Shown piece by piece: positions 20,693 to 26,673 of a DNA stretch of 33,333 bases. The position numbers and the translations under genes are program-made. Source of the stretch: Gemmobacter aquatilis (GTDB lineage Bacteria > Pseudomonadota > Alphaproteobacteria > Rhodobacterales > Rhodobacteraceae); NCBI RefSeq assembly GCF_900110025.1, contig NZ_FOCE01000018.1:1-33333 (forward strand), given 5' to 3'. Numbering within the stretch: the first letter of the stretch is position 1; each line of letters begins with the position of its first letter. The notes under the pieces are model-generated. The model did not search any database. It had not been told where the DNA came from and was given only the letters and a program-made list of their open reading frames with translations.

Positions 20693-21673
20693 ATGACCCG
20701 GACCGTAATCGAATCGAAAACCAAGACCGTCATCATCGGCTTTGACGAACCCTTCTGCGTGATCGGCGAACGCATCAACCCGACCGGCCGCAAGAAGCTG
20801 GCGGCCGAGCTGGAGATGGGCAATTTTGAAACCGTGCTGAAAGACGCGCTGGAACAGGTCGCCTGCGGGGCGAATGTGCTGGATGTGAACTCGGGCGCCG
20901 TCTTCACCAACAAGATGGCCGAAGACCCGCGCTATGCCGACAACAACTTCGTCGAACCGCCGCTGATGCGCGCGCTGATCGAAGCGATTCAAGGCGTGGT
21001 CGATGTGCCGCTCTGCATCGACAGCTCGGTGCCTGCTGCGCTGGAAGCGGGCCTTGCCGCCTGTGAGGGGCGTCCGCTGCTGAACTCGGTCACCGGCGAG
21101 GAAGAGCGTCTGGAGCTGGTGCTGCCGCTGGTGAAAAAATACAACGTGCCGGTGGTGGCGATTTCCAACGACGACACCGGCATCTCGCCCGACCCGGATG
21201 TGCGCTTTGCGGTGGCGAAAAAGATCGTGCAGCGCGCCGCCGATTTCGGCATCCCGGCGCATGACATCGTGGTGGACCCGCTGGTCATGCCGGTGGGCGC
21301 CATGTCCAGCGCCGGGCAGCAGGTGTTCGCGCTGGTGCGCCGCCTGCGGGATGAACTGGGCGTGAATACCACCTGTGGCGCCTCGAACATCTCGTTCGGC
21401 CTGCCGCAGCGCCATGGCATCAACGCAGCCTTCCTGCCGATGGCGATCGGCGCAGGCATGACCTCGGCCATCATGAACCCGGTGCGTCAGGTGGAAATGG
21501 AGGCGATCCGTGCCGCCAACATGCTGATGAACCACGATGCCAATGGCGGCGAATGGATCCGCTTCTCCAAGGTGATCGAGGCGGTGGAGGCCGGGGCGAG
21601 CTTTGCCGAAGCAAGTGCTGCGCAATCCTCGGCTACGTCGGGCCGCCGCGGTGGGCGCCGCTCGCGCGGCTGA
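20693..21673 (+). CDS. Methyltetrahydrofolate:corrinoid methyltransferase-like protein
   Basis: 326 aa from the ATG at 20693 (AAGGA just upstream). A pterin-binding TIM barrel of the MetH/AcsE/MtgA group: FCVIGERINPTGRKKL near the N-terminus, ANVLDVNSG, VPLCIDSS, VVAISNDDTG and CGASNISFGLPQRHGIN are visible. It would move a methyl group between a corrinoid protein and tetrahydrofolate. The Ser/Arg-rich C-terminal tail (last about 20 residues) is likely disordered. Ten bases separate it from the reductase, so they are one operon. The corrinoid partner is not encoded in the window. Confidence 0.88.
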   Translation: MTRTVIESKTKTVIIGFDEPFCVIGERINPTGRKKLAAELEMGNFETVLKDALEQVACGANVLDVNSGAVFTNKMAEDPRYADNNFVEPPLMRALIEAIQGVVDVPLCIDSSVPAALEAGLAACEGRPLLNSVTGEEERLELVLPLVKKYNVPVVAISNDDTGISPDPDVRFAVAKKIVQRAADFGIPAHDIVVDPLVMPVGAMSSAGQQVFALVRRLRDELGVNTTCGASNISFGLPQRHGINAAFLPMAIGAGMTSAIMNPVRQVEMEAIRAANMLMNHDANGGEWIRFSKVIEAVEAGASFAEASAAQSSATSGRRGGRRSRG

Positions 21674-21689
21674 TAACCGTTTTTTAACT

Positions 21690-21713
21690 ATGGGAGGGCT
21701 ACGGTCCTCCCAT
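21690..21713 (+). promoter_or_regulatory. Hairpin that buries a start codon
   Basis: ATGGGAGG (21690-21697) and CCTCCCAT (21706-21713) pair perfectly around an 8-base loop. The ATG of the next gene begins at 21712, so its first two bases lie in the stem, and the only GGGAGG ribosome-binding sequence is locked in the other arm, about 16 bases away. Folding would hide both. Possible translational control; an unusual arrangement. Confidence 0.5.
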
Positions 21714-21939
21714 GACGCAGATCTCCCGCACCACCGCCCCCCAGCCCTGGATCGACCTGATCTTTGCCGCGAAATCGGCGCAAGGCGGTGTGATCCGCCG
21801 CAGCATCGGCTGGGTCGATCGGGAAATCGGGCGGGACCGCTTTCTTTACGAGGTGCGCCGCCGCGGCTTCCATCTGATCATGGCGGGCGACCAGTTCGTG
21901 ATCGTCTGCGACCCACGCCCGATCCAGATCGTGTTCTGA
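21712..21939 (+). CDS. Conserved small protein, unknown function (75 aa)
   Basis: A compact 75-aa soluble protein with a Trp-Ile start (PQPWIDLIFAAKSAQGG), a basic centre (VRRRGFHLIMAGDQFVIVC) and an Ile/Val-rich end. I recall similar short proteins in Rhodobacteraceae, some carrying an implausible phosphoribosylanthranilate isomerase label; it is far too short for that enzyme. It lies in line with the one-carbon genes, 38 bases after the methyltransferase. Its start codon is embedded in a hairpin and its stop touches the first palindrome of the downstream array. Confidence 0.7.
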   Translation: MTQISRTTAPQPWIDLIFAAKSAQGGVIRRSIGWVDREIGRDRFLYEVRRRGFHLIMAGDQFVIVCDPRPIQIVF

Positions 21940-22039
21940 CTGATTTCCTGCGAAAATCAGTGTTCTCGCGTTTTCTGCGAAAACTCGCCAAAAGATCTTT
22001 CGCAGAAAGATCGCCGGTTTGATTCTTCGCAGAAGAATC
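21939..22039. repeat. Array of four short palindromes with about 27-bp spacing
   Basis: Four hairpins share the core TTCTGCGAA or its complement TTCGCAGAA. Unit 1: 21939-21961, 10-bp arms with one mismatch around TGC. Unit 2: GTTTTC-tgc-GAAAAC, 21970-21984. Unit 3: GATCTTTC-gca-GAAAGATC, 21994-22012. Unit 4: GATTCTTC-gca-GAAGAATC, 22021-22039. Centres fall at 21950, 21977, 22003 and 22030. Units 1-2 have TGC loops and 3-4 GCA loops, so the array is itself roughly dyad-symmetric. Arms differ between units while staying self-complementary. It follows a stop codon; no T-tract. Confidence 0.85.
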
Positions 22040-22148
22040 GATCTTGTAACCCACAAGGACGCAACCGGGGCGCAATCTGCCGCGAACAGGCATTGCAGCC
22101 CGCCTGCCGCAGCCTAGAAATGCTCAGGCGGCCAGAATGGGGACAGGG

Positions 22149-26599: not shown

Positions 26600-26673
26600 G
26601 CGGGTGTAGCTCAATGGTAGAGCCGCAGCTTCCCAAGCTGATGACGAGGGTTCGATTCCCTTCACCCGCTCCA
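26600..26673 (+). tRNA. tRNA-Gly (anticodon CCC)
   Basis: 74 bases with encoded CCA. Acceptor stem GCGGGTG/CACCCGC, D-arm GCTCAATGGTAGAGC, anticodon loop TTCCCAA giving CCC (reads GGG), T-arm AGGGTTCGATTCCCT. The top anticodon-stem pair is a G-A mismatch. The 3' end is intact and is a frequent insertion point for integrative elements; accessory DNA starts right after it. Confidence 0.96.

Follow-up and report, generated by a model that had tools for sequence, protein, structure and literature searches.

A probable untagged REP-like family of 3′-end hairpins in Rhodobacteraceae and its four-unit array behind a small gene of Gemmobacter aquatilis

REP-like repeats are old puzzles, and their known partner is the RAYT transposase. 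In the broad sense of the criteria given in part of the RepRanger paper (PMC12306157), such a repeat is extragenic and usually transcribed, is a short palindrome (14–40 nt in E. coli) with a common consensus, and occurs in many copies; a passage of PMC2817692 describes the palindromic features of REPs as preserved through sequence changes. CGTC REPs, as presented in a portion of PMC3733652, are palindromic, mostly alphaproteobacterial and have no dedicated transposase. Here we analyse a regular array of hairpins in the window, by which we mean the whole 33,333-nucleotide stretch of contig NZ_FOCE01000018.1 of Gemmobacter aquatilis, and compare it with these systems.

Direct reading of the letters confirmed four hairpins at 21940–22039. 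Their centres lie at 21950, 21977, 22003 and 22030, in steps of 27, 26 and 27, which agrees with the spacing of about 27 bp in a first-pass annotation of this DNA. That annotation had also assigned a nine-base core to all four hairpins; the core, TTCTGCGAA, is exact in units 2–4, but unit 1 has one change (TCCTGCGAA). Unit 1 (CTGATTTCCTGCGAAAATCAG; 21940–21960, plus strand) begins right at the end of the stop codon of a small gene and has the imperfect core, a 7-bp stem with arms CTGATTT/AAATCAG, and a 7-nt loop. Unit 2 (GTTTTCTGCGAAAAC; 21970–21984, plus strand) reads GTTTTC-TGC-GAAAAC, with a mismatch at the next outward pair. Unit 3 (GATCTTTCGCAGAAAGATC; 21994–22012, minus strand) has the arms GATCTTTC/GAAAGATC, and unit 4 (GATTCTTCGCAGAAGAATC; 22021–22039, minus strand) has the arms GATTCTTC/GAAGAATC; these two units are the ones whose arms had been quoted as different yet complementary. 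The flip of the loop halfway through the array was likewise borne out, with the core on the plus strand in units 1 and 2 and on the minus strand in units 3 and 4 (++−−). A similar rate of the core in shuffled sequence had been named as a refuting result, as had a lack of copies and of conserved arm pairing in relatives, and neither was obtained. TTCTGCGAA occurs three times in the window, compared with a shuffled mean of 0.37, and 0 of 100 shuffles reach three. The RNA folding z-score for 21935–22050 is −3.25, with none of 200 shuffles equally stable. In the minimum-energy RNA fold (−37 kcal/mol), the first half of the array pairs with the second; the local hairpins alone give −32.5 kcal/mol. 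The Rfam 15 covariance models gave no match over the array at gathering score and, at E values up to 1, a single sub-threshold match, which lies inside the small gene; elsewhere in the window, an Rfam match marks a tRNA gene at 26600–26670. A search of a plasmid collection returned three weak partial matches.

The array is a member of a dispersed extragenic repeat family of Rhodobacteraceae, which was one of the possibilities raised at the outset. In the 3.96-Mb genome that contains the window (G000), the pattern TTYCTGCGRAA has 51 sites, compared with 3 for the reversed pattern. The corresponding counts are 31 versus 3 in the sister genome G008 and 8 to 16 versus 3 to 7 in nine other genomes of the genus. 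Of the 51 G000 sites, 41 continue the pairing beyond the 11-mer by three or more arm pairs and 10 by two or fewer. The units are palindromes of about 19–21 nt that share one core and have stems of 6 to 15 bp, and their arms take the forms GATT, GAAT, GAGT, GATC, TGAT and others. Outward pairing of these varied arms is kept in 175 of 204 cells, as against a shuffled mean of 117 and a maximum of 135 in 2,000 shuffles. Template-switch repair of palindromes in DNA could keep arm pairing in this way without any reader. A search for copies in the genome and its relatives, as the first-pass annotation had proposed, found them: GANTTTTCTGCGAAAANTC is present in 33 of 295 sampled genera, with high numbers in a few (54 in G111, 32 in G000, 26 in G104, 19 in G250 and 18 in G308). 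Among the matches listed (80 named of at least 119), all titles are Rhodobacteraceae or Rhodobacterales except one titled Exiguobacterium. The record CP059262.1 (loci L078 and L109), titled Exiguobacterium profundum, bears hairpins of the Rhodobacteraceae type, and its name may be wrong. We found no description of these repeats in searches of the open PMC library, where the matches for three sequence spellings look unrelated, judged by title.

At least two further genomes share the ++−− arrangement. Pairs of cores on the same strand occur in 7 of the 295 genera. Eighteen such pairs are found in G125, in which six complete ++−− arrays were tabulated and further arrays have three exact cores. 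Core spacing in the six complete arrays is 25–28/23–25/25–28, compared with 27/24/27 in the window. The window and all six of these arrays have the inner stems G(C/T)GTTTTC and GATCTTTC; the outer stems differ with pairing kept, and are irregular only in units 1 and 2 of the window and in one unit of L287. Unlike the inner stems and the spacing, the short stretches that separate the units are not conserved between the window and the G125 arrays. In CP059262.1, two arrays have this layout but a shorter middle step of 17–18. The array of the window also stands behind the orthologous small gene in genus g116, with core spacing of 27/24/27 in both.

Related genera have similar stems with other loops. 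The pattern ATTTTTCN{1,6}GAAAAAT is present in 27 of 34 chosen genomes, and its reversed control gave 0 matches. The loop is TGC in 18 of the 21 ATTTTTC...GAAAAAT sites of G000, TT/AA in 10 of 17 sites of G120, and GAC/GTC in 9 of the 13 listed sites (of 25) in G005, which belongs to the same genus as G000. G155 and G266 mix several loops, and a genome-specific loop is therefore a tendency rather than a rule. The orthologous sites L235/L031 and L253/L036 of sister genomes share one stem but have the loop turned round (CTGCG versus CGCAG), as though an inversion of the palindrome had taken place.

The units lie preferentially at gene ends. Among 43 units with a stem of at least 7 bp (40 fetched G000 loci plus the window), 41 are intergenic according to a purpose-made codon-usage caller; the two 'inside' units, in L061, may reflect a miscall. 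Nineteen of the 41 are between convergent genes, 22 between tandem genes and none between divergent genes, a placement expected for 26% under random intergenic placement in the same loci. Moreover, 66% of the units in the G000 loci are within 15 nt of a stop codon, versus 19% under random placement. The 40 loci were selected through the core, and these context counts are therefore valid for that core only. In loci from other Rhodobacteraceae, 8 of 157 units are between divergent genes, all of them in the two arrays of CP059262.1. Copies stand at dozens of other genes, and the hairpin-bearing genes include those that we take, from their protein starts, to be gcvH, guaA, efp, rplT, glyA and aroA, housekeeping genes among them. 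Locus L069 has two TGC units (2521–2583) and then a third with the loop TAC (about 2605–2621), at steps of ~40 nt; the gene downstream of them presumably resembles rpsD.

Stop-proximal first units are 27 sense and 4 antisense in G000, and 9 sense and 17 antisense in G008 (Fisher p = 7 × 10⁻⁵). A comparison of 41 G000 loci with 27 G008 loci found only five genes that are followed by units in both; the G008 loci were taken at that genome's own sites, and this count is therefore less than a full orthology comparison. AT-rich hairpins are found behind guaA in 1 of 30 genera and behind rplT in 1 of 30, and stems of any composition, mostly GC-rich, in 7 of 30 and 15 of 30, respectively, as read in the best 30 of 61 genera, a set that differs from the small-gene genera. 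The rplT hairpin of G000 overlaps the stop codon and is missed by the rplT count, and guaA of G000 is followed by a three-unit version of the array. We regard the hairpins behind guaA and rplT, unlike those behind the small gene described next, as lineage-specific.

The array in the window is the 3′ module of the gene directly upstream (21712–21939, plus strand), our candidate partner gene, which encodes a 75-aa basic protein with no Pfam or NCBIfam match at an E value of 0.001. Homologues were compared in 30 genera, the best-scoring of the 122 genera with the gene. One or more stems of at least 7 bp occur within 110 nt of the stop in 29 of the 30 (two or more in 25), compared with 77 of 3,000 shuffled flanks. 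In the thirtieth homologue (G202, L315), the stop is lost and the frame extends into the hairpin region, with the hairpin visible from the facing gene. Other gene ends in the small-gene loci have a stem within 60 nt in 18 of 70 cases, mostly a facing neighbour at the same hairpins or GC-rich; for gene ends in comparison loci, the counts are 0 of 9 (cupin), 0 of 12 (RAYT) and 4 of 30 (window, all four GC-rich). In G125, the small gene is followed by an orthologous ++−− array, and in G008 by two hairpins. The loops behind the gene vary by genus (TGC, GCC, GAC, TT and others), and the TTC/GAA clamps are mostly kept.

An MTase homologue is upstream of the small gene in 15 of the 30 loci and RACo is downstream in 13, and none of the four neighbour genes is within the fetched 1.5 kb in 15, a count to be read with the short loci L290 and L295, in which neighbours may be missed. 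Hairpins are present in both groups and therefore accompany the small gene, not the operon. The cupin gene of the window is preceded by four regularly spaced palindromes, and a multi-site operator of the cupin–RACo operon had been among the readings offered for the array. A core-like match is absent, however, from four of the five best cupin orthologue loci of the genus (examined for the core only), and the single match in the fifth (L225) falls within a called gene some 650 bp upstream. As the hairpins also persist behind the small gene where neither cupin nor RACo is near, and copies are found at dozens of other genes, the operator was rejected as extremely improbable. At 22077–22120 of the window, upstream of the cupin gene, is the stretch CTGCCGCGAACAGGCATTG...CAGCCTAGAAA, and a similar stretch was seen by eye before the cupin orthologues L221 and L222; the operon may therefore have its own conserved leader or promoter, separate from the array.

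The small gene occurs in 122 of the 295 sampled genomes. In raw counts that ignore kinship and were made for the small gene alone, without a control gene, it is present in 33 of 34 genomes with at least five hairpins (Fisher p = 3 × 10⁻¹³), in 29 of 29 with at least seven, in 31 of 33 with TGC-loop hairpins and, a weaker association, in 64 of 97 with at least one. Of the 122 gene-bearing genomes, 89 hold fewer than five hairpins of the searched pattern. Upstream of the gene in the window is a CtrA-like box, ATAA-N7-TTAA (21673–21687, plus strand), with one mismatch to the consensus TTAA-N7-TTAA, which was taken from parts of PMC4287350 and PMC7232146. Allowing up to one mismatch, this consensus is found upstream of 21 of 28 homologues (exact in 8), compared with 2 of 65 other genes; other spacer lengths are found upstream of 0–3 of 28, and at two mismatches the box is no longer distinct from other spacers. 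From this motif we predict a CtrA-controlled promoter for the small gene. Just 5′ of the ATG, at 21692–21711, is GGGAGG-GCTACGGT-CCTCCC, which could hide a ribosome-binding site. The small gene was also considered as a mobile cassette flanked by hairpins, a reading that was rejected, as only 7 of 28 homologues have a hairpin of at least 7 bp in the 110 nt upstream, mostly GC-rich. Structure searches with the small protein gave matches (R3H, SepF, ribosomal S8 and others) that are all weak and in the common range, and a winged-helix reading of the element order in the predicted model was dropped for want of backing from these searches. No residue of the small protein was associated with the TGC loop beyond chance (permutation p = 0.31). 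Overall, the earlier interpretation is partly supported; its third reading, a processed RNA, is conceivable. The CtrA-like box, the association of the array with the small gene and the loop differences between genomes are newly seen here.

Set against the broad REP criteria, the family is extragenic (41 of the 43 units whose stem reaches 7 bp), consists of short palindromes with stems of 6 to 15 bp and one core, and has many copies (51 core sites in 3.96 Mb, of which 41 are extended by three or more arm pairs). Judged by sequence, the array can be classed as a REP-like repeat in the broad sense and as a new variant that lacks a tag, and an untagged REP-like 3′-end hairpin family in Rhodobacteraceae is very probably the right description. 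Like GTAG-type REPs and BIMEs with RAYT, the family has short extragenic palindromes, many copies, inverted pairs, clusters and species-specific forms. It differs from RAYT REPs in its AT-rich stems, its TTC-TGC-GAA core and its ++−− arrays at steps of ~27 nt. At the feet of the 43 units, on the two sides, GTAG was found 1 and 0 times, GTGG 0 and 2 times and CGTC 0 and 1 times; no more than 4 of the 43 have direct repeats of 2 nt at the feet, and 0 of 43 have them at 5 nt. Y1_Tnp (PF01797) has no match at an E value of 0.001 in G000 or eight other hairpin-bearing genomes, and is present in 1 of 20 genomes scanned (G001). With no Y1_Tnp match in these nine genomes and feet that generally lack GTAG and CGTC, mobilization by RAYT was rejected. 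The likeness to CGTC-tagged REPs is that of palindromic repeats without a dedicated transposase, and the text of PMC3733652 contains none of eight terms looked up for the group studied here.

The explanation that we rate highest, although it falls a little short of probable, is that of a four-unit REP-like 3′-end array that serves as the small gene's 3′ module and whose hairpins are read by a trans-acting factor. The hairpins would act as stem-loops, either at mRNA 3′ ends or in extruded or single-stranded DNA, and the factor would read the loop plus the clamp (TTC-NNN-GAA here). In its doubled form, the ++−− array may offer a site for denser binding, or it may be a version that works in both directions. 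The best candidate reader would be the small basic protein itself, which could regulate its own transcript by way of the hairpins at the 3′ end and label the ends of other genes; we put this role forward only tentatively. Loop orientation is biased in G000 and leans the opposite way in G008; a simple RNA-loop reader would not predict this antisense lean, and neither it nor the residue-versus-loop result helped the case for the small protein. A full two-part system, in which a CtrA-controlled 75-aa nucleic-acid-binding protein would be paired with a genome-specific 3′-end hairpin code, with feedback on its own message, loops that shift at many sites from lineage to lineage and ++−− arrays as the strongest sites, seems unlikely.

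The hairpins could instead be neutral or selfish REP-like repeats that are spread by some enzyme and gather where they are least harmful, at gene ends, the small gene being an old favoured site. REPs usually avoid 5′ regions, and the lineage-specific hairpins at guaA and rplT, the overlap of only five genes between the G000 and G008 loci and the similar inner stems of the six complete G125 arrays fit such a spread. It is harder to reconcile with the absence of a Y1 transposase match from G000 and the eight other hairpin-bearing genomes, with feet that have no tag or common direct repeat, with unconserved spacers between units whose inner stems and spacing are conserved, and with hairpins behind one gene in 29 of 30 genera, and we consider it somewhat doubtful. 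Plain 3′-end structures, that is, transcription terminators or mRNA exonuclease blocks with no specific reader, would also place stable local hairpins behind stops and between convergent genes, as intrinsic terminators commonly do. The hairpins here differ from intrinsic terminators, however, in that their core is common to unrelated genes, and an intrinsic terminator was rejected because a U-tract (four or more T among the 8 nt that follow) is absent as a rule, being found after 1 of 31 units in G000 and 0 of 26 in G008. The 3′ arm in the commonest forms is A-rich, the reverse of a canonical terminator, and ordinary GC-rich hairpins with T-runs come after some units (L034, L039 and L051). Plain structures would not need a fixed loop, yet TGC is the loop at most ATTTTTC...GAAAAAT sites of G000, and this alternative, too, seems improbable.

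The genome-specific spelling of a dispersed short motif recalls the dialects of Neisseriaceae DNA uptake sequences (PMC3630211). Loops that differ between genomes and a CtrA-like box before the partner gene would suit species-specific DNA recognition marks of this kind, tied to a CtrA-controlled competence or gene transfer agent (GTA) programme; in Dinoroseobacter shibae, according to passages of PMC7232146, competence and GTA genes are under CtrA control. By contrast with uptake sequences, each unit here is itself a palindrome, and the units are confined to gene ends. Known uptake sequences are far more copious than these hairpins, of which there are about 50 copies in 4 Mb, and such marks are very unlikely.

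The family described here has no tag and no RAYT match, keeps its inner stems and spacing, and shifts its loops between genomes. In 29 of the 30 genera sampled, its hairpins follow the same small gene, which is therefore a concrete candidate partner that is directly testable. Should the protein prove to read the hairpins, gene ends in a widespread bacterial family would be under a new kind of control.
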